Assembly (NCBI GenBank): GCA_963169875.1
Contig: CAUJEL010000141.1
Span: forward strand, 1 to 36,275
Direction of reading: 5' to 3'
Length of the DNA stretch: 36,275 nucleotides
Origin: Candidatus Zhuqueibacterota bacterium
GTDB taxonomy: Bacteria > Zhuqueibacterota > Zhuqueibacteria > Residuimicrobiales > Residuimicrobiaceae
Notes under the pieces: generated by a model
Seen by the model: the letters and a program-made list of their open reading frames with translations, nothing else
Told to the model about the DNA's origin: nothing
The model's database searches: none
In this document: in pieces, positions 8,301 through 36,275 of the stretch
How positions within the stretch are numbered: position 1 is the stretch's first letter
Layout: each line of letters starts with the position of its first letter
Program-made: the position numbers and the translations under genes

Positions 8301-8575
8301 TTTTGTGGTTAATTACTCCGAAAAGTATGAAAAAATCATACTTATTGGAGAAAATATGAGGTTCATTTGTTGCGTGAGTACACTCCAAGCTAGAGAATTC
8401 CCCGGACGATCGGTGTTTTTCCAATCAATCCGGTTGCTCAGAAGGCCCCATGCTGCGCTTTGTCTGTTGGAAATGCATTGCAACCTGACGATTATTTTTT
8501 ATCAGCATGTCATCCTGGAAGGATCTTGCAGGTTCGTCAAATAGAAGCGGTGTCTCCTGCGAATTTATGAGCGCC
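8301..8575. repeat. Dispersed non-coding repeat, copy A (fills most of the gene-free gap 8182-8619)
   Basis: This 275-bp stretch aligns along its whole length with 12533-12809 in the same orientation, roughly three quarters identical by eye. Both copies carry a perfect stem AAGTATGA-N5-TCATACTT near the left end (8323-8343 here). Shared blocks include gaattccccgga, ggtgtttttccaat and ttatcagc. I see no conserved reading frame. Part of it (TTATCAGCATGTCATCC) recurs exactly at 9301-9317. Confidence 0.8.
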
Positions 8576-8619
8576 CATCGTTCGCTCTGTTTGTCTGGAT
8601 GGGGCTTACAGCATGGCAC

Positions 8620-12250: not shown

Positions 12251-12532
12251 GGAAATCGCCTTATCAGAAATTACTACATTGAAAACGCGAATTTCATTTC
12301 GGTGAGGATGTCTTGCATCACAGCCTTTGATAATCAATCTGGCACACTTATACACAAAGTTAATGTATGTCTTTTAGGCCTAACTTTCAAGAAGAGCTTT
12401 CAAGTTTTTTCAAAAATGGAAAAACGAGAAATTTGTGCTCGTTTCATGCCAATAAATTTCGATATTCGTAATAGAGGCTTTTATGAAATCAGGGATCGCT
12501 TTGAAGGTATTTAACGATGACAGAAGCGTGTC

Positions 12533-12809
12533 TTTTGTGCTTTTTTTCTCCCAAAAGTATGACAAAATCATACTTGCTGGAGATAATGTAACGTTCATTT
12601 ATCGCACGAGCACACCCAAGCAAGAAGAATCCCCGGATGATTGGTGTTTTTCCAATTAATCCGGTCGTTCAGAAGGCTCCATGCTGTGCTTTATTTGCTG
12701 GAAATGCATAGCGACACGATGATCAGTTTTTTATCAGCCTGTCATCTTGAAAGGATCTTTTGGATACGTCATGTAGAATTGGTGTAACCCGCAAATTCAT
12801 GAGCTCCCC
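12533..12809. repeat. Dispersed non-coding repeat, copy B (in the gene-free gap 12251-13075)
   Basis: Partner of 8301-8575, same orientation and similar length, with the conserved stem AAGTATGA-N5-TCATACTT at 12555-12575. The gap also holds, to the right, a repeat of a second family at 12899-12989. The stretch 12251-12532 shows nothing I can name. Confidence 0.8.
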
Positions 12810-12898
12810 CCGTAACGTGCCGTTTTGATAATAGATGCTTGCGGCATGACAGGTGTTATGATCTTGGTGAGTGCGCCTGGTTTCTGGGTAGTAAAAAG

Positions 12899-16002: not shown

Positions 16003-16902
16003 CTGGACCTGGACACCCAAATAAGACTGGCCGCTTTCCAATGGCTCGAACAACAGTCCCCCCTCTACGAAGAGGTCTTTCCACGCCCCCTCCTGGCGAA
16101 TGGATTCTCCTTTGACGGGGCGCCTATCCCACTGGTCTCGCCACAAGGGATTTTTCGCCCGCGCCAAATGACCTATCCGATCTCCATCACCTCGGCGCCC
16201 AAAGGGCCCTACGCCGATTCGTTTGACGCAAACGGCTATCTGCTCTACAAATACCGCGGCACAGATATTCAGCATCGCGATAACGCCGGCCTGCGCCAAG
16301 CCATGATCCATCAGGTCCCACTCATCTATCTCCATGGTATCGTGCCCGGAAAATACCTCGCCATCTGGCCGGTCTATATCGTCGCCGACACCCCAGCGGC
16401 GCTCTCTTTCAAAGTGGCGGTGGATGACAAAAACGCCCTGTCCCGGTTGCATGAAACCACCATCAGGGACGACGATGCCGATGCCCGGCGCCGCTACATC
16501 ACCGCTTCGGTCAAGGCGCGACTGCATCAGAAATCCTTTCGCGAAAAAGTGCTCTATGCCTATCGCAACCAGTGCGCTTTCTGCCGCCTCAAACACCAGG
16601 AACTGCTGGACGCGGCGCATATCCTGCCGGACAACGATCCGGACGGTCTGCCCACCGTGCCCAACGGCATCTCCCTGTGCAAGATACACCATGCCGCCTT
16701 TGACAAACTCTTCATTGGCATCCGTCCCGATTACATCATCGAGGTCCGCTCGGACATATTAAAAGAATCTGACGGTCCCATGCTGCTGCACGGACTGCAG
16801 GAATTGCACAATCATCCTATCATCCGACCGGCCTCGACCAAAGACTGGCCCAACGCGGAATACCTCGATCGCCGCTACCAGCAGTTCAGGAAGACGGGCT
16901 GA
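16003..16902 (+). CDS. HNH restriction endonuclease-like protein, probable CTG start
   Basis: 299 aa if it begins at CTG 16003. The first ATG is 16168, but the frame is open and protein-like well before it: LDLDTQIRLAAFQWLEQQ, then LYEEVFPRPLLANGFSFDG and IPLVSPQGIFRPRQMTYPISI, which is how this HNH family normally begins. There is no ATG, GTG or TTG in frame between the stop at 15964 and 16168. CTG 16003 has AAGG six bases upstream and falls where the family's Met is expected. The C-terminal half holds the HNH nuclease: CAFCRLKHQELLDAAHILP, then NGISLCKIHHAAFD. Its stop is 3 bp before hsdR, so it belongs to the restriction operon and may cut modified or foreign DNA. Confidence 0.85.
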   Translation: MDLDTQIRLAAFQWLEQQSPLYEEVFPRPLLANGFSFDGAPIPLVSPQGIFRPRQMTYPISITSAPKGPYADSFDANGYLLYKYRGTDIQHRDNAGLRQAMIHQVPLIYLHGIVPGKYLAIWPVYIVADTPAALSFKVAVDDKNALSRLHETTIRDDDADARRRYITASVKARLHQKSFREKVLYAYRNQCAFCRLKHQELLDAAHILPDNDPDGLPTVPNGISLCKIHHAAFDKLFIGIRPDYIIEVRSDILKESDGPMLLHGLQELHNHPIIRPASTKDWPNAEYLDRRYQQFRKTG

Positions 16903-16905
16903 GCC

Positions 16906-19683
16906 ATGAACCAGAACCCCGAACAGATCGCCCGCGATCACATCGACCAGCAGCTGGCCGCCTGCGGCTGGACCATCCAGGACAAATCGCGCATCAACCT
17001 CCACGCCGCGCCCGGCGTGGCCGTGCGCGAATACCTCACCGACGCCGGTCCCGCCGATTACGTCCTTTTTGTCCACGGCAAACCCGCCGGCGTCATCGAA
17101 GCCAAGCGCGAGGAAGAGGGCCACAATCTCTCAACCCACGAGGACCAGGCCGAAGAATACGCCGCCGCACGGCTGAAATACCTCAACAACGAAAAGTTGC
17201 CCTTTGTCTATGTCAGCACCGGCGAAATCACCGCGTTTACCGATTTCCGCGATCCCAAGCCGCGCAGCCGCAGCCTCTACACCTTTCATCGCCCCGAGAC
17301 GCTGCATCACTGGCTGAAAAAGCAGAACTCGCTGCGCGATTCGTTCCGCCATCTGCCCGAACTGCCGCCCTATGGCCTGCGCGACTGCCAGTTCAACGCC
17401 ATCACCGCGCTGGAAAAGTCCCTGAAAAATAACCGGCCGCGCGCCCTCATCCAGATGGCCACCGGCGCGGGCAAGACCTTTGCCGCCATCACCGCCATCT
17501 ACCGGCTGCTCAAGTACTCCCACGCCGGCAAAATCCTCTTTCTCGTCGACACCCGCAACCTCGGCGAACAGGCGGAACAGGAATTCATGTCCTATCTCCC
17601 CAACGACGACAACCGCAAATTCACCGAACTCTACGGCGTGCACCGCCTCAAATCGCGCCACATCCCCGGCGACAACCACGTCTACATCAGCACCATCCAG
17701 CGCCTCTACGCCATCCTCAAGGGACAGGATCTCGACGAGAGCGCCGAAGAGGAGAATCCCAACGAGCGTGCCTGGCAGCCCAAAGAAGTGCCGCCGGTGG
17801 AGTACAACGCCAAACTCCCGGTCGAGTTTTTCGATTTCATCATCATCGACGAATGCCACCGCAGCATCTATAACCTGTGGATGCAGGTGCTGGACTATTT
17901 CGACGCCTTTCAGATCGGACTCACCGCCACGCCCGACAACCGCACCTTTGCCTATTTCCAGCAGAACGTGGTCTCGGAATATTCGCACGAGATGGCCGTG
18001 GCCGACGGCGTCAACGTCGGCTATGACGTCTATATCATCGACACCAAAGTCACCCGCGAGGGCGCGACCCTGTGGAAGGGTGCCTATGTGGAGCACCGCG
18101 ACCGCCTCACCCGCAAGAAGCGCTACGCGCTCCAGGACGAGGACGAGACCTATTCCGCCAAACAGCTGGACGCGGACATTGTCAATCCCTCGCAGATTCG
18201 CACCGTGATCTGTGCCTTCAAGGAGCATCTGCCCGAGATGTTTCCGGACCGTATCGACGGCCATGGCGAGTTCGAAGTGCCCAAGACGCTGATTTTTGCC
18301 AAGAGCGACAGCCATGCCGACGACATCATCCGCATCGTGCGCGAAGAGTTCGACGAAGAGAGCCGTTTCTGCAAGAAAATCACCTACAAGACCAGCGAGG
18401 ATCCCAAATCGGTGCTGGCGCAGTTCCGCAACGATTACCATCCCCGCATCGCCGTGACCGTGGACATGATCGCCACCGGCACGGACGTGCGGTCGCTGGA
18501 GTGCCTGCTCTTCATGCGCGACGTCAAGAGCCGCAACTATTTCGAGCAGATGAAAGGCCGCGGCACCCGCGTCATCCATTTCGATGATCTCAAAAAGGTC
18601 TCCCCCTCGGCGCGCCTGGCCAAGGACCATTTTGTCATCGTCGATGCCATAGGCGTCACCAGGAGTCTGAAAACCGACAGCCGTCCGCTGGAAAAAAAGC
18701 CGGGCGTGCCGCTGAAGGATCTGCTCGGCGCCATCACCGTGGGCGCGCGCGACGAGGAGATCTTCACCTCCCTGGCCAGCCGACTGGCCCGCCTCGACAA
18801 GCAGATCAATGAGAGTGAGCGGCAGCGCTTCCGGGATTTGTCCGGCGGCCGGAGTGTAGCCGAGGTTGCCAAAGGCCTGCTGGCTGCCTGGGATCCCGAC
18901 ACCGTGGAGGCCTTGCGCGAGCAAGTGGCCGACGAGATGCCCGACGCGGCACCGCAGGAGCAGGAGGCGCGCTACAAGGAGCTGCATGCGGAGGTGCTCA
19001 ATGACGCGGCCCGGGTTTTCACTGGCGAGCTCAATGACTATATCGACAACGTGCGCAAGATTCACGAGCAAAAGATCGACCTGCAGAATCCCGATGTGGT
19101 GGAGACCACCGGCTGGGACACGAACAACCGGCAAAAGGCCGAGGAGACGGCGACGGGATTCAGGGAATGGATCGCCGGGCACCGGGATGAGATCATCGCG
19201 CTGCAGCTCTTTTACGGCCAGCCCTGGCGCCGCCGCGAGCTCACCTTTTGCATGATCAAGGACTTGGTGGACCGGATCAAGCTGGAGAAGCCGGCTCTGG
19301 CGCCGCTGGCGGTGTGGCGGGCTTATGAACAGTTGGAGCGGGTCAGCGGACAGCCGCGCAACGAGATGGTGGCCCTGGTGGCGTTGATCCGCCGCGTCGT
19401 GGGCATTGATGGCGCCTTGACCAACTATAACCAGACCGTGGACCGCAATTTTAAGGAGTGGCTGTTCCGCAAGCAGGCGGGCAGCGGGCCCAAATTCACC
19501 CCGGATCAGATGGAGTGGTTGTACATGCTCAAGGAGCAAATCGCCACCTCGGTGCACGTGGCCATGGACGATCTCGATTACACGCCCTTTGATGCCCAGG
19601 GTGGCCGCGGCCGCATGTACCAACTTTTCGGCGCGGACATGGAAACTATCATCAACGAACTCAACGAAGCATTGGCGGCGTAG
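16906..19683 (+). CDS. hsdR: Type I restriction enzyme, R (motor/nuclease) subunit
   Basis: 925 aa. An N-terminal PD-(D/E)xK nuclease shows D51 and E65-A-K67 in PADYVLFVHGKPAGVIEAK. The SF2 translocase follows: Walker A ATGAGKT (185-191), motif II DECH (315-318), motif III TATP (340-343) and motif VI QMKGRGTR (548-555). A helical C-terminal part of the EcoEI/HsdR_C kind (from about 640) should contact the methylase core. Together with HsdM and HsdS it would translocate and cut unmethylated DNA. Gene order is HNH-hsdR-hsdS, with a 3-bp gap upstream and 1 bp downstream. Strikingly, no hsdM is present in the window. The very GC-rich codon use leaves a long antisense frame that I do not believe is a gene. 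Confidence 0.95.
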   Translation: MNQNPEQIARDHIDQQLAACGWTIQDKSRINLHAAPGVAVREYLTDAGPADYVLFVHGKPAGVIEAKREEEGHNLSTHEDQAEEYAAARLKYLNNEKLPFVYVSTGEITAFTDFRDPKPRSRSLYTFHRPETLHHWLKKQNSLRDSFRHLPELPPYGLRDCQFNAITALEKSLKNNRPRALIQMATGAGKTFAAITAIYRLLKYSHAGKILFLVDTRNLGEQAEQEFMSYLPNDDNRKFTELYGVHRLKSRHIPGDNHVYISTIQRLYAILKGQDLDESAEEENPNERAWQPKEVPPVEYNAKLPVEFFDFIIIDECHRSIYNLWMQVLDYFDAFQIGLTATPDNRTFAYFQQNVVSEYSHEMAVADGVNVGYDVYIIDTKVTREGATLWKGAYVEHRDRLTRKKRYALQDEDETYSAKQLDADIVNPSQIRTVICAFKEHLPEMFPDRIDGHGEFEVPKTLIFAKSDSHADDIIRIVREEFDEESRFCKKITYKTSEDPKSVLAQFRNDYHPRIAVTVDMIATGTDVRSLECLLFMRDVKSRNYFEQMKGRGTRVIHFDDLKKVSPSARLAKDHFVIVDAIGVTRSLKTDSRPLEKKPGVPLKDLLGAITVGARDEEIFTSLASRLARLDKQINESERQRFRDLSGGRSVAEVAKGLLAAWDPDTVEALREQVADEMPDAAPQEQEARYKELHAEVLNDAARVFTGELNDYIDNVRKIHEQKIDLQNPDVVETTGWDTNNRQKAEETATGFREWIAGHRDEIIALQLFYGQPWRRRELTFCMIKDLVDRIKLEKPALAPLAVWRAYEQLERVSGQPRNEMVALVALIRRVVGIDGALTNYNQTVDRNFKEWLFRKQAGSGPKFTPDQMEWLYMLKEQIATSVHVAMDDLDYTPFDAQGGRGRMYQLFGADMETIINELNEALAA

Positions 19684-19684
19684 G

Positions 19685-20965
19685 ATGGGGGAAACTGCGA
19701 ATATACCCAAGGGATGGATTATCGTTCCACTGGAAGATGTATGCCAGATTTGTGATAATTTAAGAAAGCCAGTTAATTCCGATGAAAGGCTCAAAAGGAT
19801 TGCGGGGAAAAAACCCAATGAACTATATCCTTATTATGGGGCCACCGGATTAGTTGGTTATATAGATGATTATTTAACCGATGGGGAATATGTTTTATTA
19901 GGAGAAGATGGCGCACCTTTCCTCAGCTTCGGAAAAGATGTTGCCTATATGATCAATGGAAAAACCTGGGTAAATAATCATGCACACATTTTATTGTCGT
20001 ATTTCAGCAATAAATATCTCATGCATTATTTGAACCAAGTAGATTATAGAAGTTATGTCTCGGGTACAACTCGTTTAAAGTTAACCCAGGCATCGATGAA
20101 AAAAATACCTATTCGACTTGCCCCATTGGAAGAACAAAACCGCATCGTTGCCAAAATAGAAGAATTATTCAGCAATTTAGATAAAGGGATCGAGAGACTC
20201 AAGGCCGCCCAGCAGCAGCTCAAAATCTACCGCCAGTCCGTCCTCAAATGGGCGTTTGAGGGAAGGTTTACGTCACAAAGTGTGAAAGAAGGCAGTTTAA
20301 TAGATGGTTGGAGAGTATTTAAACTAGAAGAAATAACCTTAAAGATACAAATTGGCCCATTTGGTACTCAATTGCATAGGGAAGATTATATTGAAAATGG
20401 TATCCCATTAATAAATCCCATGCATATTCAAAATGGTCAAATTATTCCTGATGCAAAATACACAATAACGCAAAAGAAAAAAGAAACACTGGCTGAATAT
20501 ATACTCAGAGAGGGTGATATAATATTAGGTAGAAGAGGTGAGATGGGGAGATGTGCGTTAGTTCAAACACAGGAATCCGGATGGCTTTGCGGAACTGGAA
20601 GTCTCTATATTCGTCCTTCTTTAGAAATCTTGAATTCAAAATTTTTATATTATTTTCTAAGTAGCGAAACCGCAAAAAAATATTTAGAGGAAAATGCTGC
20701 TGGAACTACAATGGCCAATCTAAATTCACAAATTATTAATCGTCTCCCTATTGAACTACCACCACTCAATGAACAGCAAAAAATCGTCAAGGAAATAGAA
20801 AGTCGTCTTTCCATTTGTGACAAGATGGAGGAGATCATTGCCCAAAACCTACAGCTGGCTGAGGCATTGCGGCAGAGCATCTTAAAAAAGGCATTCGCGG
20901 GCAAACTCGTCACCCAAGATTTAAACGACGAGCCCGACCGTGCCATGTTGAAAAATACAAAATGA
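19685..20965 (+). CDS. hsdS: Type I restriction-modification specificity subunit
   Basis: 426 aa from ATG 19685, one base after the hsdR stop. Two target-recognition domains are each followed by a conserved helix: the central one is PLEEQNRIVAKIEELFSNLDKGIERL (about 155-180) and the C-terminal one PPLNEQQKIVKEIESRLSICDKMEEI, ending QSILKKAFAGKLV. The repeat of 'TRD plus helix' is diagnostic. The TRDs are AT-rich while the conserved helices are GC-richer, the usual sign of TRD exchange between alleles. It needs HsdM to bind DNA, and none is encoded nearby. There is no separate ribosome site, so translation probably couples to hsdR. Confidence 0.95.
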   Translation: MGETANIPKGWIIVPLEDVCQICDNLRKPVNSDERLKRIAGKKPNELYPYYGATGLVGYIDDYLTDGEYVLLGEDGAPFLSFGKDVAYMINGKTWVNNHAHILLSYFSNKYLMHYLNQVDYRSYVSGTTRLKLTQASMKKIPIRLAPLEEQNRIVAKIEELFSNLDKGIERLKAAQQQLKIYRQSVLKWAFEGRFTSQSVKEGSLIDGWRVFKLEEITLKIQIGPFGTQLHREDYIENGIPLINPMHIQNGQIIPDAKYTITQKKKETLAEYILREGDIILGRRGEMGRCALVQTQESGWLCGTGSLYIRPSLEILNSKFLYYFLSSETAKKYLEENAAGTTMANLNSQIINRLPIELPPLNEQQKIVKEIESRLSICDKMEEIIAQNLQLAEALRQSILKKAFAGKLVTQDLNDEPDRAMLKNTK

Positions 20966-20983
20966 ATAATACAGCGATGCAAG

Positions 20984-21010
20984 GCATTGACAGGTTAGTA
21001 ATAGGTTATA
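20984..21010 (+). promoter_or_regulatory. 27-bp element shared with 29431-29457
   Basis: GCATTGACAG, then gtaatagg and twata. It matches 29431-29457 at 24 of 27 positions and lies 36 bp before the ATG of the S1-domain gene. It holds a consensus TTGACA, but no good -10 sits at 16-18 bp, so it may be a promoter with an activator, an operator or a recombination relic. Confidence 0.5.
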
Positions 21011-21046: not shown

Positions 21047-22588
21047 ATGGGCCTTTGGAATGATCTGCTCTCTCTCCTTGGATGGGGAGACGAAGAACCC
21101 GCAAAGGCAACACGAGCGCCTCGCACGTCACGAACTACGTCTCGGAGCAGTGGAGCAAGTCCGGGTGACGTCTTCCCTGGCCGCGTCGAGCACATTGACA
21201 ACCACTTCGCCAAGGTTGCATCCGACGGACTCACTGCCGTCGTATTTCTGGGAGAGATAGCTGACGAGTTCATCAACCACCCATCGGAGGTTCTACACGA
21301 GGGGCAGGCTGTCGATTTCGTCCTTCTGAAACATGATCCACGAGGATGGGTTGCGAGTATCCATGCAGCCTCCGAAGCCAAGATCAGAGCGGCGTTGGCC
21401 AGGGTCAACGAAGGTGATCACATTCGTGGAAAGATAATCAACCTGAAGGACCGCGGAGTCGTGCTTGACGAAGGCTCATTCGAAGCCTGGATACCGATCG
21501 CCGAAATAGCGTGGCGCTGGATCGACCATCCATCCGAGGCAGTATCCCTCGGAGACGAGGTAGAGGCTGAGATTATCCGAATTGAACTTCCGGATGAATG
21601 GTTAACGGACAAAAGGAATCGCCGAGCACAGGCTGTTGCGAGTCTTCGCGCATGTCTCCCTCAACCGGTCTCGCCGATGATTCCCATTGCATTCAGTAGC
21701 CTACCATTCAAAGTGTGGGCGATTGCTAAGACCCCACGAAGCTGTGACCCGGTGGTCTTGTACGTGCTCGAAGATCTGGTCGCCGGCCGCGCCAAAGATG
21801 AAATCGTGGCGACAACCGGTCTGCCCAACGCGACACTCGACAAGGTGCATGAAGTTCTTCTTGGCGAGAAGCTCGTAAAGGACTGGCGTCCCAGCGCAAA
21901 GGGAAAGCGGTTGGCGGAAGCAGTTGCCCTTGCACGCGAGTTGAACGGTAATCCTATCCGGGGCCTTTTTGCGAGTGCCGCCAATCCGGCATCCCAGTTC
22001 CTCTCGGCAGTGGAACAACATGAGCAGATCGAGTACCCGCGTGACTGGCCGCGCCCACCATTCAACAAGGCGGCAGAAGATACCTTCACCAGGGCTACCG
22101 ATGAGGCATTGCCTGAACCTTTGATCGAGCGAATCGTTACAGATGACAAGCGCTCGATTCTGGCCAAACTCCAGGAAGACGACCGGCTACGTGTGTTTCT
22201 ACGCCGTGACGGATCACGACCATGGAAGCCCGCTTACGTGGAAACCTCTGAGCATTGGTTCCTTGCCGGTCTCTGGAGTGCATTCGAGCCGTTCGTCGGC
22301 AAACCGTACAGGCCGGCAAATGGCTACTCAAGATGCCGTGATTTTCTCATGGTCCGTTGTCATGCAGTGGAGAGAAAGAACGGTAAGCCCATGGAGACGG
22401 TTTTTCTTGAACCGTATACGTCCTCCGTTTGGCGGTTGCAGAGCAGCGATCGAGTGATCGTCCGGGAGCGAAGAGGCGGGACGTTCCCTTCTATGCCGTC
22501 TCTGGGCAAGCAGGGAATTCCCCTTGAGTCCGGAGCGGTGGCAAAGCGTCTCGTACCAGATTCATGGTGCGTCATAGGGGTGCGGTGA
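21047..22588 (+). CDS. Two-S1-domain protein with winged-helix-like middle (first gene of putative novel operon)
   Basis: 513 aa, ATG preceded by GGAGA. After a basic Ser/Arg/Thr linker (15-37), two S1-type OB folds follow: about 38-110 (GDVFPGRVEHIDNHFAKVASDGLTAVVFLGEIA) and about 118-185 (GDHIRGKIINLKDRGVVLDEGSFEAWIPIAEIA). Both keep the G-x-V/I opening and the 'hydrophobic-E-I' close that bind single-stranded RNA or DNA. Around 240-300 a winged-helix-like block is visible (VLYVLEDLVAGRAKDEIVATTGLPNATLDKVHEVLL). The C-terminal 200 residues are unfamiliar. It starts a compact four-gene operon ending in a membrane-anchored SF1 helicase, so it probably supplies nucleic-acid recognition to that machine. 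I do not know a named family for the whole protein. Confidence 0.85.
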   Translation: MGLWNDLLSLLGWGDEEPAKATRAPRTSRTTSRSSGASPGDVFPGRVEHIDNHFAKVASDGLTAVVFLGEIADEFINHPSEVLHEGQAVDFVLLKHDPRGWVASIHAASEAKIRAALARVNEGDHIRGKIINLKDRGVVLDEGSFEAWIPIAEIAWRWIDHPSEAVSLGDEVEAEIIRIELPDEWLTDKRNRRAQAVASLRACLPQPVSPMIPIAFSSLPFKVWAIAKTPRSCDPVVLYVLEDLVAGRAKDEIVATTGLPNATLDKVHEVLLGEKLVKDWRPSAKGKRLAEAVALARELNGNPIRGLFASAANPASQFLSAVEQHEQIEYPRDWPRPPFNKAAEDTFTRATDEALPEPLIERIVTDDKRSILAKLQEDDRLRVFLRRDGSRPWKPAYVETSEHWFLAGLWSAFEPFVGKPYRPANGYSRCRDFLMVRCHAVERKNGKPMETVFLEPYTSSVWRLQSSDRVIVRERRGGTFPSMPSLGKQGIPLESGAVAKRLVPDSWCVIGVR

Positions 22589-22591
22589 GCC

Positions 22592-23092
22592 ATGGCCAAT
22601 CATGTCCCGAGACACGCACTGACTCTCATGGCAAGCAGCGCCAAGCTCGCTGCCAAACACGGACTAAAGAAAGGCCTCTCGAAGGCTGCAGCAAAGGCAA
22701 ACCCCGCTCTGATGGTCATCGAAGCTGCAGTTTCCGTTGCTGAAGCCGTCAATTCATACCTCGAGCTACGGAAGGCGAGGGAACACCGAGATGGCCTCCA
22801 AAGGCTCATCCCCCATGAGGAGGAGCGTCTTCACCTTGAGCGGCAACAGCTCGCCGAGCAACTCGATTTGGCGAAAGAAGAAATCGCTCAGAAGAAGGAC
22901 ATCCAACGGAGACTCGGAGAACTCGTGCTTGAGTGCGGCAGGGTCTGCAGGACGACCTGGACTGAACTGTACGCAATTCGAAAATCGGACTTGCCGGATC
23001 TCGAAGCCTTCGACAAGCACCTGCGCACACTCGAAGACGCCTGGTCCGATCTCCAGCACGCACTACAGAACTACAACGAAACAACTGCCTAA
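22592..23092 (+). CDS. Small Ala-rich/coiled-coil protein (second gene of operon)
   Basis: 166 aa, starting 3 bp after the previous stop, so translation is coupled. Residues 10-55 form an Ala/Lys-rich amphipathic helical region (AAKHGLKKGLSKAAAKANPALMVIEAAVSVAEA) that could lie on a membrane or protein surface. Residues 60-115 form a charged coiled coil (EEERLHLERQQLAEQLDLAKEEIAQKKD). There is no catalytic motif. It is probably a structural or adaptor subunit pairing with the next coiled-coil protein or with the coiled coil at the N-terminus of the helicase. Not a recognised family. Confidence 0.8.
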   Translation: MANHVPRHALTLMASSAKLAAKHGLKKGLSKAAAKANPALMVIEAAVSVAEAVNSYLELRKAREHRDGLQRLIPHEEERLHLERQQLAEQLDLAKEEIAQKKDIQRRLGELVLECGRVCRTTWTELYAIRKSDLPDLEAFDKHLRTLEDAWSDLQHALQNYNETTA

Positions 23093-23107
23093 ACGGAGGA
23101 GAAAGCC

Positions 23108-23599
23108 ATGTCAGACGACAAACTGAAGCTACCGACAAGCCTAACCAAGACAGGTGCTTCGGTCATAGAGCCACCTGTTTCCGATGGTGTTAGAACTGAA
23201 ATGCTCAAGGCCCAAAGAGCGGGGATCGACGCAAGCGCGAAGGTCGAAGTCGCAAGACTGCAGGTCGCACAAGAAGCTATCGCAGCTTTCAAGGCTTTCT
23301 TCGACGTCCTGAAGTCTCACAATGAGCTACAGGCGACACGTGCGGAATGGGAGGGGCGAGTCACTGAGGCCGAGACAGCCGTGAAGAAGGCGCAGGTCGA
23401 TTTGGAGACAGCGCAAGAGAACAACAAACCCAAGATGGAGGAGCTCGAACAGTCGCGCGAGGCACAGACACGGCTGTTGTCGTTATTCGACGAAGTCATG
23501 AAGCAGGTTACAGATGCGGATTTGAGCGACGAAGTGCGCAAGGAAGCGCGACAGTACCTGCTGCAGCTCTCAGACCGGATTGTCCAATTGAAGAAGTAG
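23108..23599 (+). CDS. Small coiled-coil protein (third gene of operon)
   Basis: 163 aa with GGAGGAG just before the ATG. Residues 30-125 are long helices rich in Ala, Glu, Lys and Gln (AKVEVARLQVAQEAIAAFKAFF, then EWEGRVTEAETAVKKAQVDLETAQE) that should form a coiled coil. The C-terminus is another short helix pair. It has no signal peptide, TM segment or catalytic motif. Its stop is 12 bp before the helicase GTG. Likely an adaptor or scaffold within the four-protein assembly; function not known. Confidence 0.8.
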   Translation: MSDDKLKLPTSLTKTGASVIEPPVSDGVRTEMLKAQRAGIDASAKVEVARLQVAQEAIAAFKAFFDVLKSHNELQATRAEWEGRVTEAETAVKKAQVDLETAQENNKPKMEELEQSREAQTRLLSLFDEVMKQVTDADLSDEVRKEARQYLLQLSDRIVQLKK

Positions 23600-23611
23600 G
23601 AAGGTACACCC

Positions 23612-26600
23612 GTGATCCTGCTACTCGCCATCGCCGGAATCAGCCTGACAGCAAGCGCCGTAAGCTGGTGGAACGGTCGACGCACCGCCAAAGTCCAGGA
23701 GCAGATTGATGTCTTGGAGGCGCAGCTCGCCGCTATTCACGCGGCGGATGCAAAAGCGCGGCGGAAGCTGATTGGCGAGTATGTGGCGGCACTAGAATCG
23801 TTTGTCGATCAGGAACTCGACGCGAGAAATGGCATCGCGACCGAACTGACTGCCTGCCACGCAAAGGCACGAGGAATACTGGAAAAGCGATTTGGGAGCC
23901 GTGAGCGCGACTCGTTCCTTCAGATTGTTCTGGAGCTCGAGCTTGCGCTGAGCCGTATCAACGCGGAACGGGCCTATCTGACCCTACTCAAAAAGTCACT
24001 CTCCTCCGTGGCAAAGGGCGATCAGGCCGAGATCCCGAGTCCAGCAGCACTTCTATTGCCCAACGATTTTCCAAGAGAGGGTGGCCTCGTGCACTTCGAT
24101 GGCGACGTTCCTCGCCAGCTTCATGGCTACCGGATGAAGGTAGAAGACTGGTCCAGCGAGCTGGAGGGCCGTGCGATGCTGTTCGACGTCGACCACAAGA
24201 AGCGCGTCGCAAGGGTATCGGCTACTGGAGCTGCCTTGCTTGAAGCGAACTTATTAGATGGAGGCGGCGCCCTTCCGGCGAAGGTAGTGCATCGAGATCG
24301 CGAAGGTGTTCAACTCAAGTACCTCGAGGCGCCGCTGCTGCTCCCCTGTATGGGCTCGCAGGACTATGGCTGGCTGACGCCAGAAACAGACGCAGAAGTC
24401 TATCCGGAAATCTGGACGCTTCAGGAAATCACCAGATTGGACCCTGCACGGCCTCTTCGTGTGCGGGCACATCCGCGCATCGGTGGAAGCAAGAAATACT
24501 GGTCACCGATTCTACTATCGGTCTCTGAAACGCGGCTCCCTTCACTCGTGCAAGCGTATGAACGGATCAGCGACGCTGCTCAAAACGCTCCGTGGCGCAT
24601 CCATTTGATGGAGTCGGGCCAGATCGCGTTTTCGCTCGGCGCCGTCACTTTGGTTACAACAGCTGACTCGAATCAACAGGCATTCTCCTTGGACGACGTG
24701 CTTTTTGAGGAGCTTGACCCGCCGGTCTCTGTTTGTTTTCACGCAGGAATCACCGCATTCGTTCCAGGAACGGAAGACGATGCCGAGGCAGATCGTTCAC
24801 TGTTCAATTCCTTTGTCGAGGCGATTCATGCTGATTTGAGCAGCCAGAAGCAGATGCTGTTACAACGCCGAACGGCTCTGCGACTACGAAAGCTGTCCTT
24901 GATCTACCAAGATCAACAGGAGCACCTTCAGACAGCCGGCTCCTGCGGTTTCCTCCCAGGTGAAATCCACTATGGCGGTCGCATTGTCGTCGGAACCATC
25001 ACTGGTACCACACCTCCAGCATGGTTAGATCAAGCGATCGCCGCCGGAGGAGATACGCGGCTCCGCGCTGTCGGTCACGCCATCGGTTGGGACGTGAAGC
25101 GTGCAAGCTGGGTTGATCGACAACTTGGTATATGCAGGTTGGAGTTGGACGCTCCTTCTGAGGCGACTCTTCGGGAAATCAATCCGTTCAAGCTATCCAG
25201 GCTTGAGTTGTCAGGCGAGGGATCTCAGCAACAGACCCTTTCCAAAGCTCTGGAGCATGCGATTCTCGGAAAATTCACATCTGCCCGCGTGCATTCCACA
25301 CTTCTTGGGCTTTCCGGGGACTACATCAAGAACAAGAACCGAGGCCGGGCTCCTGTTGAACGACTTCTGGATTCCGACGAGCCCGTGGTCGCTGTTTGGG
25401 GCCCCCCTGGTACAGGGAAGACAACACTACTTGTCAACTGGTTGGCCTCGCTGTTTGAGCAAGGCAACGAACAGTCATGGCCGAGTGTTCTCATTGCAGC
25501 ACCCACTCATGTGGCTGTCACAGGGCTGCTTACCGATCTCTTGGAAAAAGCCGGCATGCTTTCCGACGAAGTCGTTCGGTACGGTAGTGCGGAGAGGGTT
25601 GAAGGCAGCGCCTTGGAGCGGGTCTGGCATACCCGCCTGCTGGATGTGATACGACGCGAGCCGCGCGACGGGGAACAGACCCATGATTCCTGGATCAGGT
25701 GGAATTCGCTGATGGGAACCAGGGAAGGCCGTGAATCGGCGACAAGGTGGCTCTTAGGTCCACGGCACATTCACGCAGCAACGTGCGTTGGGATGGCGAG
25801 GCGCGACTATGGTTTGTGGAGCCGCCCCTTTGACATCGCTATCATTGATGAAGCGGGCAAAGCCTTCGGTGCCGAGTTGCTGCTGCCTGCTTCGGTAGCG
25901 CGCAGAGTGATTCTTGTTGGAGATCACAATCAGCTTCCGCCCACCGTCACCACCGAGGTGCTGGACGAGGAAATCGGCTACCGCCTATCACTGAGTGAGG
26001 TTGAGGAACTTCTGCGCAGAAACATGTTCCACGAGATATTCGAGCAGCTCCCTGACACGGCAAAAGGAATGCTGACGGAACAGCACCGGATGCAAAAGGA
26101 CATCGGCGACGTAGTCAGTGAGCTGTTCTATGATGGGCAAATGCAATCGCACAGAAAAGCCGACAACTGTACCGTGACGAGAAAGCGTTTGGTATTCGTC
26201 GACTTCAGCAAGGTGCCGACCTACAAGCACTACAAGAGCCGCACCTCAGAGTCGACGGAGAATCCAACCGAGCGTGCGGCGTTGCATGCGGTACTGGGGC
26301 GCATGGGCGAAAAGCGCGACAAGATCAAGTCCAGCATTCTGGTGGTGTGTCCCTATGAAGCGCAGCGCATTTCGGTGGCAGAGGAGATTGACAGGAGCAG
26401 GTATGGCCTGACTGTGAGTGTCACCACAGTGGATGCCGTGCAGGGCGGTGAGGCCGACATCGTGATTCTCTTGATGACAAGAAGCCGTGGCCGCGTTCAG
26501 TTCCTCCTCGACAAACACCGGCTAAACGTGGCGCTTTCCAGGGCGCGCGATGCTGTCATAGTGTTCGGGCACCGGGATTGCCTCTCCCAGAGCAAGGAAA

Positions 26601-26713
26601 GTCCGATCGAAAAATTCATTGAGATTGGTTTGCGTAATGGAACACTCAACCTAGTTTGCTTGGGTGCAAGAGCGGATTTTAAAAAGGACATGGCGGCGAA
26701 GATCATTAGTTGA
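23612..26713 (+). CDS. Membrane-anchored UPF1/DNA2-like SF1 helicase (fourth gene of operon)
   Basis: 1033 aa from a GTG start preceded by AGGAAGG. Residues 1-20 form a single TM segment (ILLLAIAGISLTASAVSWW), and 30-130 a coiled coil with charged helices. Residues 130-560 are a large unfamiliar middle region. The SF1 motor then follows: Walker A GPPGTGKT (597-604), Walker B DEA (746-748) with VGDHNQLPP, QHRM in motif IV, DAVQG (about 941-945) and ALSRAR (974-979). The AAA_11/AAA_12 pattern marks a 5'-3' UPF1/DNA2-type RNA or DNA helicase. No nuclease motif is seen. A helicase of this class tethered to the membrane is unusual in bacteria. An attC-like site follows its stop. Confidence 0.92.
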   Translation: MILLLAIAGISLTASAVSWWNGRRTAKVQEQIDVLEAQLAAIHAADAKARRKLIGEYVAALESFVDQELDARNGIATELTACHAKARGILEKRFGSRERDSFLQIVLELELALSRINAERAYLTLLKKSLSSVAKGDQAEIPSPAALLLPNDFPREGGLVHFDGDVPRQLHGYRMKVEDWSSELEGRAMLFDVDHKKRVARVSATGAALLEANLLDGGGALPAKVVHRDREGVQLKYLEAPLLLPCMGSQDYGWLTPETDAEVYPEIWTLQEITRLDPARPLRVRAHPRIGGSKKYWSPILLSVSETRLPSLVQAYERISDAAQNAPWRIHLMESGQIAFSLGAVTLVTTADSNQQAFSLDDVLFEELDPPVSVCFHAGITAFVPGTEDDAEADRSLFNSFVEAIHADLSSQKQMLLQRRTALRLRKLSLIYQDQQEHLQTAGSCGFLPGEIHYGGRIVVGTITGTTPPAWLDQAIAAGGDTRLRAVGHAIGWDVKRASWVDRQLGICRLELDAPSEATLREINPFKLSRLELSGEGSQQQTLSKALEHAILGKFTSARVHSTLLGLSGDYIKNKNRGRAPVERLLDSDEPVVAVWGPPGTGKTTLLVNWLASLFEQGNEQSWPSVLIAAPTHVAVTGLLTDLLEKAGMLSDEVVRYGSAERVEGSALERVWHTRLLDVIRREPRDGEQTHDSWIRWNSLMGTREGRESATRWLLGPRHIHAATCVGMARRDYGLWSRPFDIAIIDEAGKAFGAELLLPASVARRVILVGDHNQLPPTVTTEVLDEEIGYRLSLSEVEELLRRNMFHEIFEQLPDTAKGMLTEQHRMQKDIGDVVSELFYDGQMQSHRKADNCTVTRKRLVFVDFSKVPTYKHYKSRTSESTENPTERAALHAVLGRMGEKRDKIKSSILVVCPYEAQRISVAEEIDRSRYGLTVSVTTVDAVQGGEADIVILLMTRSRGRVQFLLDKHRLNVALSRARDAVIVFGHRDCLSQSKESPIEKFIEIGLRNGTLNLVCLGARADFKKDMAAKIIS

Positions 26714-26745: not shown

Positions 26746-26820
26746 ATATAACAACCGCATCAACACGGACTGGCAATTTCGCTGCGCTACATTGCCAGCC
26801 GGTTATGCTGAGCGTTAGGT
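26746..26820 (+). other. Integron attC-like recombination site
   Basis: 75 bp with the attC layout: an inverse core-like ATATAAC (26746-26752, one mismatch to RYYYAAC), a perfect 8-bp stem CTGGCAAT / ATTGCCAG around a TTCGCTGCGCT loop (26770-26798), the phrase GGTTATGCTGAGC, and the core site GTTAGGT (26814-26820, fits GTTRRRY). The next gene's ATG lies 15 bp later, as in cassettes. No integrase gene or second clear attC is in the window. Confidence 0.55.
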
Positions 26821-29356: not shown

Positions 29357-29430
29357 CAAGATAAAAATTGAGCGTACATCTTTGCCTATTTAAACAAAAC
29401 AGAAGCTAAAAACAACAATCTAGATGTCAT

Positions 29431-29457
29431 GCATTGACAGATTTGTAATAGGTAATA
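29431..29457 (+). promoter_or_regulatory. 27-bp element shared with 20984-21010
   Basis: GCATTGACAGATTTGTAATA and then ggtaata; 24 of 27 bases match the element before the S1-domain operon. It ends 49 bp before the ATG of the DUF262-HNH gene. It contains consensus TTGACA, with TACATG at a spacing of 16 as the best, weak, -10. Confidence 0.5.
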
Positions 29458-31896: not shown

Positions 31897-32685
31897 TTGC
31901 GTAGGCAACCATTAAATATCCTACTCTTTTTCGGCCTGTTTGCAGTTTTGTCATTATTGACTGCTCAACTCAGCACGAGTTTCTGCCAGGAGAGCGCTTT
32001 TCATCCAGGCGATCGGATCATCGCCCTGGATGTCACTTTTCTCAAGAACAGCCCCAGGTCTTCGTCGCTGATTCTCGCCGTGTTGGAGAGCAACGAATCA
32101 GCCATCGTCATTGATAGTCAATCTATCTGGGTTCATGTCAGCAGTCGCGATGGCCGGGCGCAAGGCTGGGCAAAAGCAACCGAATTTAAAATTGGAACAC
32201 AGCGAGCAGCCCCAGACACACTGTCAAAGACCATCGGTATGTACGCAGAAGCCAGGGATACAATACAAAAATCTGAGCAAGCAGTTCCACCTGCACCACA
32301 ACCGCAGAAAGAAATAAGGAGTAAATCAGGCCAGGGCACGGGGATATGGGGAATTATCATCAGCAGTATCCTCTCTGCTTTTTTTGGTGGAATGCTCGGT
32401 TTTTTCTTTCAACGCACAAAACACAAGCAGCGGCCGACAGCCAAGGGCAATGTTGAAGGGATGCGAAAATTCAATGAGTTAATGATCGCCTTTGAGGGCA
32501 TCTACACAGCTCATCAAAAATTGCTACAGAGCATGTCAGGGAACGGGTATGAGCACTGGCAGATGTTATTCGAAGAACTTTCCAATGCCTATAATCAATT
32601 GGCAGTGTTGCAGAAAAAAAGCCTGAACGATATCGAATACCTGCAACAGGAAATAGAATATTTGCAGGAAGGACATAAAATTTAA
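31897..32685 (+). CDS. SH3-like/TM/coiled-coil membrane protein (first gene of ATPase operon)
   Basis: 262 aa from a TTG start with AAGGCGG upstream; an in-frame stop lies shortly before, so TTG is nearly forced. Residues 1-32 are a signal peptide or anchor (LLFFGLFAVLSLLTAQLSTSFCQ). Residues 37-100 look like a bacterial SH3 domain (HPGDRIIALDVTFLKNSPRSSS, then WVHVSSRDGRAQGWAKATEF), placed outside the cytoplasm. A Pro-rich linker follows, then a TM helix at about 150-172 (IWGIIISSILSAFFGGMLGFFF). The C-terminal 90 residues are cytoplasmic and end in a coiled coil. This is an envelope-spanning layout that could pass a signal to the ATPases encoded next. Family not recognised. Confidence 0.75.
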   Translation: MRRQPLNILLFFGLFAVLSLLTAQLSTSFCQESAFHPGDRIIALDVTFLKNSPRSSSLILAVLESNESAIVIDSQSIWVHVSSRDGRAQGWAKATEFKIGTQRAAPDTLSKTIGMYAEARDTIQKSEQAVPPAPQPQKEIRSKSGQGTGIWGIIISSILSAFFGGMLGFFFQRTKHKQRPTAKGNVEGMRKFNELMIAFEGIYTAHQKLLQSMSGNGYEHWQMLFEELSNAYNQLAVLQKKSLNDIEYLQQEIEYLQEGHKI

Positions 32686-32711
32686 CAATAGCATTATGGA
32701 GGCACTCTATC

Positions 32712-33545
32712 ATGGATGGTAGCAAACTTGAACGGCTGATCATTTTTTATAGAAAGATGGGCGATATCCTGCGCATCATGAATGAGATCAAAAAATTGGA
32801 TGAATCCAGAGCCGCCAATCTCCGGGCGCTCAAGGCGCGCACAGAAAAAATTCTCACTATGTGCGCAGGAATGGATGATAGCACCATTGTCAAGGAGTTC
32901 AGTGCGGAAATCGATGCGTATCAGCAAACTCTCGTGCAGTCGGAACAATCATTGGTGGACGAGTTCGGCGTGCGGCTGGAGGATTTGCTGCAATCAAGGC
33001 AGGTCACCCTGACCGGCCAATACCCGAATCTGCGAGCGGGTCTTTTTACAATCAAGATGGATGTAATAAATTGGCAAGTAACCCTGTGGTACGGACCGGA
33101 GCAGGAAAGACTGGAAAAATGCCCCCTGGATGCAGAAACCGTGGCAAACCGTATTGGCGCACAGTTAGATACGCTTGGTTCTCAGCTCAAGCCCGAGCAG
33201 TATGCGTCCATCCTCGCAAACGTTTATAAAAAAGTGAAAATTGAAACCGGCGGCGAAGAGATGGTGCCCATCATTCAACTGCTGCCAGAGATGGCGCTGG
33301 CGTTGCAAGGCAAGGCTTTTTTGAAGGATCCGAACAAAGAAAATTATATGCCCTATTCAAGGGCGAATTTCAGTTTTGACCTGTTCAAACTTAAAAGGTT
33401 TAATCCGACGGATCTACCCATACTGGTGCAATTGACCGTGGCAGCGCGCGCGCTCACCACGGATAAATCCAAGTATCTGTGGATTCCGGATGATTTGAAA
33501 GGAAATGGTTCCACCTATTCTCATATTCGCATCAGGGAGGCTTAG
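32712..33545 (+). CDS. Uncharacterised 277-aa protein (second gene of ATPase operon)
   Basis: 277 aa, GGAGG before ATG. Residues 1-100 are helical and charged (KLERLIIFYRKMGDILRIMNEI, then EFSAEIDAYQQTLVQSEQSLVDEFGVRLEDLL). The C-terminal part is mixed, ending with FSFDLFKLKRFN, VAARALTTDKSKYLWIPDD and a final SHIRIREA. No catalytic motif, no TM and no TerB-like pattern, although it occupies the place TerB proteins hold in Shango. The stop codon adjoins the ATG of the first ATPase, so the products are probably made in matched amounts and work together. Confidence 0.75.
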   Translation: MDGSKLERLIIFYRKMGDILRIMNEIKKLDESRAANLRALKARTEKILTMCAGMDDSTIVKEFSAEIDAYQQTLVQSEQSLVDEFGVRLEDLLQSRQVTLTGQYPNLRAGLFTIKMDVINWQVTLWYGPEQERLEKCPLDAETVANRIGAQLDTLGSQLKPEQYASILANVYKKVKIETGGEEMVPIIQLLPEMALALQGKAFLKDPNKENYMPYSRANFSFDLFKLKRFNPTDLPILVQLTVAARALTTDKSKYLWIPDDLKGNGSTYSHIRIREA

Positions 33546-34784
33546 ATGGAAGAGCTCAGCAAACCTATTGCTCGAAAAATAATTGAAGCCTTGGGGGAGT
33601 CCGGGCAACCCCCTGTTTATGGTCATCACTTCTTTTCCTGCGGACTGGACCCGTATCTGAATATCATCGACTCTGAGTATTTAAAGACCTACATCAAAGA
33701 TGGCGGCGCATCCTTTAAAATCGTCGAAGGCATGTACGGAGGCGGTAAGACGCATTTTCTCTACAGCATCCGTAATCTGGCCTGGCAGGAGCGCTATATT
33801 GTATCATATGTTACGCTTAAATCACAGGAAAGCCCATTTTACAAACTGGAACTCGTTTATAAAGCCATTGTGAACGGTTTAATTGCCCCGCAAGAACCTG
33901 AAAAACTGCTCTCGCCAAATTATGAAAAAGGGATCGCCAGTCTCATTGATTTTTGGATACAGAATTTTCGAGAAAATCATCTGGACGTTTCAGCGACAGA
34001 AGAAGAACAAAAGGAGATGCTCGAGCATGAACTGGACAACGTGCAAGGCATCGAAAGCACCAGCTTTGCCAAGGCCGTAAAAAATGCATTCAAGCAGCGT
34101 TATTACAGCAACGATGAAGGTTTCGAAACGATCTGCCAATGGCTGCAAGGCGAGGGATACGACCGCCGCTTGCACGGCCGTTTTGGCATTTACGAACGAA
34201 TTGACAAAACAACTGCGTTTAAGATGATCCGATCGTTGGTCCGCTGGATTAACCAAATTGGCTTCAGCGGCATAGTCATTCTTTTTGACGAAGCAGAGCC
34301 GAAAACCCATCTCTCCGGCAAAGATAAAAGCCAGCTGGTGAGCAATCTGCGGGAAATCATAGATGCCTGTGCCAATTCCAGCTTTATGAATGTGATGGTT
34401 TTTTACTCCATTCCGGACATGTCCTTACTCGAAAGCGGCAATATGGCGGTCTACGAAGCCTTGCGCCAGCGTATCTCCACCGTTTTTGAAGAACTTAATC
34501 CAACAGGCGTGAGGATTCAGCTGGAAGCAGTTGTGTTGGATGCACTGACTTTTCTCAATGAGGTCGGTTCCCGGATATCAGAAATCTATCAAGTCGCCTA
34601 TGATTGCACGTTTGATCAAAAAGCTCTCGATGATTTGATCAAAATCGTCGCAAAAGAATCTTATGGTAAAAGATTCGCGGATATCGGCTACAAGCGCGTA
34701 TTTGTGAAAGGTATTGCAGGTGCCTTAAATTTTTATCGCATCAAGGGAATACCGCCCAGCACTGAAGAACTCAGGATTAGTTGA
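33546..34784 (+). CDS. BrxC/BrxD-like P-loop ATPase (DUF2791 type), first of tandem pair
   Basis: 412 aa, ATG directly after the previous TAG, with GGGAGG upstream. Walker A is GMYGGGKTHFL (K68-T69), followed by the family's SPFYKLELVYKAIV segment at about 95-110; Walker B is ILFDEAEP (D248-E249). A C-terminal segment RFADIGYKRVFVKGIAGALNFY ends the protein. This is the ATPase type named BrxC/BrxD in BREX and SngB in Shango, thought to power loading or remodelling on DNA. It is clearly paralogous to the next gene. The neighbours differ from standard BREX: no pglX, pglZ or brxL is seen. Confidence 0.85.
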   Translation: MEELSKPIARKIIEALGESGQPPVYGHHFFSCGLDPYLNIIDSEYLKTYIKDGGASFKIVEGMYGGGKTHFLYSIRNLAWQERYIVSYVTLKSQESPFYKLELVYKAIVNGLIAPQEPEKLLSPNYEKGIASLIDFWIQNFRENHLDVSATEEEQKEMLEHELDNVQGIESTSFAKAVKNAFKQRYYSNDEGFETICQWLQGEGYDRRLHGRFGIYERIDKTTAFKMIRSLVRWINQIGFSGIVILFDEAEPKTHLSGKDKSQLVSNLREIIDACANSSFMNVMVFYSIPDMSLLESGNMAVYEALRQRISTVFEELNPTGVRIQLEAVVLDALTFLNEVGSRISEIYQVAYDCTFDQKALDDLIKIVAKESYGKRFADIGYKRVFVKGIAGALNFYRIKGIPPSTEELRIS

Positions 34785-34786
34785 TT

Positions 34787-36275
34787 ATGCAAGAGGACAT
34801 TGTATACAACCCGCTGTATGGCGAAGGGAAAATATTGAGTTCCCGTTTTTTTAGACGGGAGTTCTATGTGCATTTTAAAAGCGGACGCAAGGTCTGGCTG
34901 AAGGCAAATGAGATACGCCGGCTAACGCAGACGCCCATCGATTTTCAAGAGGGAGATTGGATTATCCATCGCACGTACCGCACGGGCAGAGTACTAAAAA
35001 TCATCCCCGTCGATAATGATTTCGAGATTACGGTGGAATTTGACCAATTTGGAACGAAAATACTGCGCCAGAGCATTGCCGGGTTGAATAAAACCGCGCC
35101 ACCCCCCGAACCAAAATCAATCCCCGAACCAGTTGTTAATCATTACTTTAAACCAAGACGAATGATAGAGGCTTTCCGTCTTGGTGTTGTGCCACACGAT
35201 TTGATCGACGAATTCACCTTTGGTAGAGATGCCGAAATAGCCCAAATTGAGAAGTGGCTGGCACACGAAAAGATCAACACCCACATTCTGGTGGGTGAAT
35301 ACGGATCGGGCAAAACACACATTTTGAATTATGCTTTTTGGAAAGCCATCCGTCAAGGCTATGCCGCAGCCTATGTAGAAATGGATCCCCTGGAATGCCC
35401 ATTTTATCAACCTAAAAAAGTATATGCCAAATTGATTCAGTCCTTGAAATTCCAACTGCCATATGATAAACAGGAATATGGATTTAAAAACCTCTTACAA
35501 AACTTGCTCAGCGATGGCGCCTTTCATGATCACGCATACTTTAAGCATTTATTGCCAGATGCCGGTGAAAAAGCATGGGAATGGATAGAAGCACGAAATA
35601 TCTTAACTCGGCCGGAAGAAAATGAAGGAGAAGTTGATTTGGATTATCCGCCATTGTACAATTATGCCAGTGCCGGAAATATCTATTGTTATTTGCTGAG
35701 TGCCATCGGATATGGCATCAAAAAAACCCTTGGTCTGCGCGGATTGGTCTTGATTTTTGATGAAGCGGAGGCCATCAGTCAGACCAATTACGTCTATCAA
35801 GCACAAAAAGCTGATTCGTTCTTAAAGGCATTGATTCGAGTAGCTTCCAACGATGAAGCATTAAAAAGACCACACAGTGCAGGATTGGAATATTGTTTAA
35901 AAGGCATAAGTAGAAACATCCCCTTTTTGTATCGTTCGCCTTCGTCGATCAAATTGCTCTTCGCATTTACACCCCTTACCATTTTACGAGAAATCACCAA
36001 ATATCCCGATATCATGTCCACTGAGCTGAGCGAGTTATCTCCAGAGAGCAAACGCCAACTGTTCGACCGTATAAAAATACTTTATAAAAATGCATATAAA
36101 TATGAGACAGAATCCGATGGCAAATCCCTGTACAAAATCTTGCTTGGTAAATCGGATAAAACCAGAGCATTTGTCAAGGGTTCCGTGGAAATTTTTGATT
36201 TTATCCGATTCGATCAATTCAAATCAGATGGTTCGGGGGTAACCATACATGACACCAGAAATCATTCGCAAAAAT
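34787..36275 (+). CDS. BrxC/BrxD-like P-loop ATPase with N-terminal Tudor/CarD-like part, second of pair (3' end beyond window)
   Basis: 496 codons are visible from ATG 34787, 2 bp after the previous stop; no stop occurs before the edge. Residues 1-105 hold two small beta modules (VYNPLYGEGKILSSRFFRRE, then VHFKSGRKVWLKANEI; and FQEGDWIIHRTYRTGRVLKI, then ITVEFDQFGTKIL) that look like CarD/UvrD-C Tudor folds, often contacts for RNA polymerase or DNA. The ATPase follows: Walker A GEYGSGKTHIL (K176-T177), the CPFYQPKKVYAKLI segment, and Walker B LIFDEAEA (D325-E326). The end, RAFVKGSVEIFDFIRF, matches the C-terminus of the preceding ATPase, so only a few residues are probably missing. Confidence 0.85.
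   Translation, partial: MQEDIVYNPLYGEGKILSSRFFRREFYVHFKSGRKVWLKANEIRRLTQTPIDFQEGDWIIHRTYRTGRVLKIIPVDNDFEITVEFDQFGTKILRQSIAGLNKTAPPPEPKSIPEPVVNHYFKPRRMIEAFRLGVVPHDLIDEFTFGRDAEIAQIEKWLAHEKINTHILVGEYGSGKTHILNYAFWKAIRQGYAAAYVEMDPLECPFYQPKKVYAKLIQSLKFQLPYDKQEYGFKNLLQNLLSDGAFHDHAYFKHLLPDAGEKAWEWIEARNILTRPEENEGEVDLDYPPLYNYASAGNIYCYLLSAIGYGIKKTLGLRGLVLIFDEAEAISQTNYVYQAQKADSFLKALIRVASNDEALKRPHSAGLEYCLKGISRNIPFLYRSPSSIKLLFAFTPLTILREITKYPDIMSTELSELSPESKRQLFDRIKILYKNAYKYETESDGKSLYKILLGKSDKTRAFVKGSVEIFDFIRFDQFKSDGSGVTIHDTRNHSQK
36249..36275 (+). CDS. Possible start of the next gene in the operon (9 codons visible)
   Basis: ATG 36249 (MTPEIIRKN) lies in another frame inside the expected last codons of the ATPase, with GGGGGT nine bases before it. 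In related BREX-2 and Shango modules a helicase gene follows the ATPase, so this is where I would expect it. Too little is visible to say more. Confidence 0.3.

Follow-up and report, generated by a model that had tools for sequence, protein, structure and literature searches.

UPF1-class proteins are ATP-driven 5′-3′ translocases on RNA or single-stranded DNA, S1 domains of the bS1 type bind mRNA, and the Zorya system combines a membrane component with nucleic-acid enzymes. The latter combination is also found in Shield (PMC11090510). The typical partner of a UPF1-like helicase is a winged-helix protein with a fused nuclease, the CnuH/CnuE pattern, and CoCoNuT systems of types II and III unite such a helicase with winged-helix and coiled-coil proteins and RNA-type OB/S1 folds, frequently close to type I restriction genes (PMC11090510). 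Mokosh (MkoA/MkoB/MkoC) is listed with a PLD or NERD domain (PMC10952713). The window analysed here is a stretch of 36,275 nt from Candidatus Zhuqueibacterota bacterium (assembly GCA_963169875.1, contig CAUJEL010000141.1, positions 1–36,275, forward strand). It contains four open reading frames on the + strand, separated by gaps of 3, 15 and 12 bp (Table 1), at the coordinates and with the spacing given by the original prediction. The latter had also described a protein of two S1 folds and a winged-helix-like block, two small helical proteins, and a 1033-aa SF1 helicase with a hydrophobic start followed by a coiled coil, an architecture that stood up to the analysis in each of its parts (see below).

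Table 1. Features of the four-gene operon and adjoining elements, in positions of the window
Feature	Position	Strand	Description
Upstream element GATGCAAGGCATTGACAGGTTAGTAATAGGTTATA	20976..21010	+	Possible promoter; repeated at 29423-29457, 5′ of the GmrSD-like gene
Gene 1	21047..22588	+	513 aa; S1-S1-winged helix-beta domain protein
Two S1 domains, residues 39-180	21161..21586	+	Pfam; closest solved fold ribosomal protein S1 D3-D4
Winged helix, residues 235-305	21749..21961	+	Part in common with the divergent members
Gene 2	22592..23092	+	166 aa; small helical protein, hydrophobic helix (E44, E51) and coiled coil
Gene 3	23108..23599	+	163 aa; small coiled-coil protein
Gene 4	23612..26713	+	1033 aa, GTG start; UPF1/DNA2-like SF1 helicase, predicted membrane anchor
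N-terminal hydrophobic helix (predicted anchor), residues 2-20	23615..23671	+	Followed by conserved SWWN
Coiled-coil helices, residues 26-134	23687..24013	+	AlphaFold2 model
Beta-rich domain of the four-gene-set helicase family, residues 158-383	24083..24760	+	AlphaFold2 model
Putative stalk helix and 1B-type barrel, residues 398-533	24803..25210	+	Secondary structure of the model, fold match
Helicase core RecA1-RecA2	25352..26611	+	Walker A 597-604, IIDEAGKA 744-751, GDHNQLPP 770-777
attC-like integron recombination site (TATAACAACCGCATCAACACGGACTGGCAAT...ATTGCCAGCCGGTTATGCTGAGCGTTAGG)	26746..26819	+	R''/L''/L'/R' and three extrahelical bases, by eye

The closest known relatives are the helicases of Mokosh (MkoA) and of CoCoNuT types II and III (CnuH/CnuE). 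The four-gene set resembles CoCoNuT types II and III by its UPF1-like helicase, its winged-helix and coiled-coil proteins, its RNA-type OB/S1 folds and its vicinity to type I restriction genes. However, neither McrB nor McrC (CnuB/CnuC) was detected in the four proteins or the scanned neighbours, the winged-helix protein carries no recognised nuclease and is encoded upstream of the helicase rather than downstream as CnuE, and the model of protein 4 contains no long helix between residues 605 and 740 that would correspond to the large coiled-coil insertion after Walker A of CnuH; a predicted membrane anchor is present instead. With Mokosh, the set shares the UPF1-like helicase core, as reflected by a PADLOC MkoA match of 291 bits, and the defence setting. 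This match is, however, confined to residues 581–1002 and leaves the N-terminal half of the helicase without a counterpart, a PLD or NERD domain was found by Pfam neither in the four proteins nor in the divergent members (see below), and the set adds a predicted anchor, a coiled coil, an N-terminal domain of its own and two small proteins. The likeness to Zorya and Shield consists in the (here predicted) membrane component accompanying nucleic-acid enzymes, whereas Pfam detected neither the ZorA/ZorB motor nor the RmuC nuclease in the four proteins; HEPN and Vsr domains were likewise not found in them. As the McrBC/nuclease and PLD/NERD parts that define CoCoNuT and Mokosh were not detected, we place the four-gene set among the UPF1-like-helicase defence systems but outside these two. 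Beyond the helicase core PADLOC 2023 offered no fitting model for the set, Pfam none for the four proteins apart from helicase core and S1 domains, and NCBIfam (June 2026) none above cut-off for the window, Pseudomonas or Clostridia versions; the NCBIfam model 'PLuB helicase-like' scored far below cut-off, and no paper on PLuB was found. The literature searched, which covered few subscription papers so that an existing name is possible, holds no description of the set. The earlier claim that it matches no named defence system is thus supported by PADLOC 2023, NCBIfam 2026 and this literature.

In protein 1, Pfam recognised S1 domains in two stretches within residues 39–180 (E 5e-15), and the AlphaFold2 model (pLDDT 82.7) consists of a disordered segment (1–34), two S1 barrels, a winged helix at approximately 235–301 and a beta-rich C-terminus. 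The S1 pair has ribosomal S1 D3-D4 as its best fold match in the PDB and ribosomal S1 proteins as its best sequence matches, but protein 1 differs from ribosomal protein S1 in containing two S1 domains only, joined to a winged helix; in the second of them some aromatic residues that usually contact RNA are missing, as judged by eye. The helical proteins 2 and 3 match no Pfam family. Protein 2 combines a coiled coil with a conserved hydrophobic helix, whose two acidic positions E44 and E51 are seven residues apart and which is kept across phyla in the form I-(E/D)-x-A...(E/D)...S-Y. Proteins 2 and 3 of the same divergent locus resemble each other beyond shuffled sequence (z 3.5–6.6, scores which the coiled-coil composition may inflate), suggesting that they are paralogues, and the window pair is too diverged for a verdict; judging from the divergent members, gene 3 is probably a paralogue of gene 2.

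Protein 4 contains a complete SF1B core (Pfam AAA_11/AAA_12, residues 581–1000) with all helicase motifs in the two RecA domains, which are kept in nine orthologues, and with the Walker A sequence GPPGTGKT at residues 597–604, including the previously named lysine K603. Its AlphaFold2 model, which like the other structure models rests on nine sequences, is of medium quality (pLDDT 66, pTM 0.33); a long helix (398–442) and a barrel (444–533) fit the stalk and 1B of related helicases and are followed by the RecA domains. The top fold matches are Upf1-RNA, Dna2 and Ighmbp2 (Foldseek E 3e-20 to Upf1, for a query model with pTM 0.33). Unlike in the UPF1/IGHMBP2/DNA2 helicases, the core is preceded by a predicted anchor, a coiled coil and a beta domain, which are confined, as far as seen, to the family of the four-gene set. 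Residues 1–19 have a Kyte-Doolittle hydropathy of 1.98 (1.5–2.4 in the 11 helicases scored), and the corresponding helix 2–20 was modelled at low pLDDT. The hydrophobic N-terminus is found in every member, those of Clostridia included, and in the close clade an invariant SWWN comes after it.

Similar 35-bp elements with the core TTGACAGNTTNGTAATAGGTNATA lie 5′ of both the four-gene operon and the GmrSD-like gene. The core has two exact matches in the genome, with none expected by chance in the window, and the element may serve two defence systems as a common promoter or operator; a third genome copy with three mismatches, in a region without a defence-like gene, is likely due to chance. The solitary attC-like site is positioned between the helicase stop and apeA, with three extra bases on one arm, as if the operon or apeA had arrived as an integron cassette. 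A cassette of 5.7 kb would be unusually large for an integron, and a second close copy of the site was not found in the genome. An Rfam search gave nothing credible.

Thirteen further loci were found, from Latescibacteria, Marinobacter, Caballeronia, Pseudomonas, another marine gammaproteobacterium and Clostridia. All 14 loci, the window included, hold the four genes in the same order and with gaps nearly all between −25 and +15 bp, which bears out the co-occurrence that the original prediction had set as a check beforehand. A scan of GTDB genomes steered to helicase motifs (by an alignment masked with X outside chosen motifs, each match being confirmed with the true sequence) returned eight full-length helicase orthologues of 44–73% identity, i.e. 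those of a Latescibacteria MAG, a Marinobacter MAG, Caballeronia calidae, a proteobacterial MAG and four Pseudomonas, each within the ordered set of four. The steered scan of IMG/VR yielded contig L030, where a 353-aa gene and two small coiled-coil genes lie before a helicase that likewise starts with a hydrophobic helix and a coiled coil. Protein 2 alone as bait led to a further copy among the sampled Pseudomonas species (L140) and to a divergent one, L144, in the order of Marinobacter, both adjoined by the other three genes. Within the class of Hungatella, the N-terminus of the helicase used by itself led to L150 with all four genes; the Hungatella locus L062 completes the collection. As three different baits converge on the same arrangement, the co-occurrence does not stem from the design of a single search, and its real range is probably wider than seen since the scans relied on narrow patterns. 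Unmasked alignments returned general helicases, single-protein scans of viral and genome collections revealed no relatives, and tblastn against 72,556 plasmids gave no match for the helicase N-terminal half or the C-terminal part of protein 1. Rejected candidates were a phage TM0106-like helicase (L016, unrelated), S1 proteins of Streptomyces plasmids (without the other three genes), plasmid helicases of 583–585 aa (L013 and L014, only the core in common) and a weak match to the protein 2 profile without helicase (L145 in G815); another weak match to this profile came from G1176.

Profile comparison between the window-type set and the divergent set (L144, L030, L062) gave E values of 4e-4, 6e-6, 0.015 and 2e-65 for proteins 1 to 4, against 0.33–0.95 for six mismatched pairs, and the best score of each protein was obtained only at the matching position. 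At E 0.015 the link of protein 3 is weak by sequence alone; its position is constant. The match of protein 4 spans residues 84–995 and thus includes the family's own N-terminal domain, and that of protein 1 is confined to the winged helix. In the three divergent loci protein 1 contains no S1 domain by Pfam but the winged helix only, and the S1 domains therefore look like an addition within the window clade. Judged from these members, the conserved core consists of a winged-helix protein, two small coiled-coil proteins and a predicted membrane helicase, with S1 outside it; the S1 domains originally described for the set hold for the window clade but not as a part of the core. On this comparative evidence we regard the four-gene set as a previously unnamed, real conserved unit and not a chance neighbourhood. 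A different arrangement was observed on the viral contig L031 (6255–12990), where a UPF1-like helicase that bears S1 domains at either end is accompanied by a winged-helix protein and a PLD nuclease. The phage contig may encode a Mokosh/CnuHE-like system, and it links the pairing logic of the four-gene set with the helicase/winged-helix pairing of the CoCoNuT paper.

Between two Pseudomonas copies, dN/dS amounts to 0.18, 0.09, 0.07 and 0.07 for genes 1 to 4, which indicates purifying selection on all four. The set was found in 3 of 399 Pseudomonas species, in 1 of 369 in the class of Caballeronia (plus one spurious match) and in 2 of 391 in the order of Marinobacter, and strong matches occur in 2 of 391 in the class of Hungatella; the helicase N-terminus is absent from 81 other genomes of the window's phylum. 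The helicases of the window and of Latescibacteria are 73% identical, compared with 36% for the sole topoisomerase match between both genomes, which may be a paralogue, and identity to the window helicase is higher for the Marinobacter copy (66%) than for the Pseudomonas copies (44%). These relations argue for movement of the unit between phyla, and its overall distribution characterizes it as rare, patchy, accessory and mobile. In the Clostridia-type loci L030 (8452–10322) and L150 (1377–4649), serine recombinase-like genes, read from translations, adjoin the operon, which suggests a common mobile element.

Known defence genes, chosen by eye, flank at least six loci and comprise type I and IIG restriction, GmrSD-like, Tiamat, ApeA, PDC-M27 and caspase/SEFIR genes. 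The window operon is located, as originally described, between a type I restriction cluster (HsdR/HsdS) and apeA, and a GmrSD-like gene and a BrxD/SngB-like ATPase are also present. Elsewhere, the neighbours are a type IIG enzyme before and DUF262/HEC-05 after the operon (L055), HEC-06 and an SNF2-type helicase (L057), Tiamat TmtA directly downstream (L058 and, by its near-identical sequence start, L059), PDC-M27B/C directly upstream (L061), and Vsr, caspase-like and SEFIR-like proteins (L062); for L054 no defence neighbour was recognised by eye. Within the window, genes for an HNH protein, HsdR and HsdS stand in a row (16168–20965), no hsdM was seen, and the GC content of hsdS (0.40) is far below that of hsdR (0.61). 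The region 31897–36275 contains a membrane protein, an unknown protein, the BrxD/SngB-like ATPase and a further ATPase-like frame running off the end, perhaps a Shango- or BREX-like set. Two diverged copies (75–82% identical) of roughly 285 bp lie 4.2 kb apart (8297–8581 and 12529–12813), with a TIR-domain gene (11261–12355) between them.

A conserved unit, patchily distributed, horizontally moved and situated among defence genes displays the traits of a bacterial immune system, and because one unit travels between very distant bacteria and usually resides among anti-virus genes, the four-gene set is probably a new kind of it. That it operates as a four-subunit accessory system against mobile elements, composed of a membrane-tethered motor, a scaffold and a substrate reader, we consider an evenly balanced proposition. 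In this scenario, the product of gene 4 would be an ATP-driven UPF1-like translocase anchored in the inner membrane through its first 20 residues and moving, as expected from its family, in 5′-3′ direction on RNA or single-stranded DNA. The coiled coil of this helicase would form a membrane-proximal scaffold together with the two small coiled-coil proteins, and gene 1 would provide the substrate reader, whose winged helix may dock on the helicase or on nucleic acid and to which the ribosomal-S1-like pair would add RNA binding in the window clade. Invader RNA or single-stranded DNA, from incoming DNA or new transcripts near the membrane, would then engage the motor, which blocks or strips the invader nucleic acid; the complex, its trigger and the nuclease-free action of the motor itself as effector are what we infer here. 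An effector enzyme was not recognised in any subunit, and we consider the missing nuclease the most unusual point of the set. Without a recognised nuclease two effector models are left, motor blockade and membrane damage. It is conceivable, albeit doubtful, that the set represents a new immune class, in which a UPF1-class RNA/ssDNA translocase, kept at the membrane by an anchor of its own and by two paralogous coiled-coil proteins, works without a nuclease, the motor or a membrane leak serving as effector.

Alternatively, the helicase and protein 1 might only sense, while protein 2 and the helicase anchor assemble and depolarise the cell in an abortive response. The lack of a nuclease or other toxin domain in any subunit and the two acidic residues kept across phyla in the hydrophobic helix of protein 2 are in line with such a membrane effector. 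However, the hydropathy of this helix, about 1.4 in the window clade and 0.42 in one Clostridia-type copy, is below the usual transmembrane threshold, and we regard this possibility as rather unlikely. Lower still is the probability of a divergent Mokosh or CnuH/CnuE (CoCoNuT) member with the same action, whose nuclease would be an unrecognised domain, e.g. in the C-terminal half of protein 1, or be supplied from elsewhere. The MkoA score, the helicase/winged-helix pairing characteristic of CnuH/CnuE (PMC11090510) and contig L031, which joins S1 domains to such a helicase beside a winged-helix and PLD protein, would be explained thereby, but the MkoA match is restricted to the core common to all such helicases, the signature domains of these systems were not detected, and the two small proteins and the predicted anchor are foreign to them as described.

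A housekeeping RNA-decay or DNA-transfer module appears improbable. S1 and UPF1-like domains are typical of RNA metabolism, and serine recombinases stand beside two Clostridia-type copies; yet the set is absent from 396 of 399 Pseudomonas species and, as judged by the helicase N-terminus, from the 81 other genomes of the phylum, its neighbours are those of defence islands, and no conjugation genes were noticed adjoining the operon. A housekeeping RNA-decay function, which the original prediction had named as a refuting outcome, did not hold for this accessory and mobile set. Very unlikely, finally, is a mere accessory of neighbouring restriction systems, as the overlap of the first gene with the stop of the type IIG enzyme in L055 and the start of the window operon 81 bp after hsdS might indicate, given that the neighbour differs in nearly every locus (type I, IIG, Tiamat, PDC-M27, DUF262 or none) while the four genes stay together.

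The four-gene set adds to the probable defence systems an undescribed and well-defined unit present in several bacterial phyla, with exact borders, 14 loci and alignments. No other UPF1-like helicase system in this comparison is apparently both membrane-bound and nuclease-free, and the set makes a possible sensing of foreign RNA or incoming DNA at the bacterial membrane directly testable.
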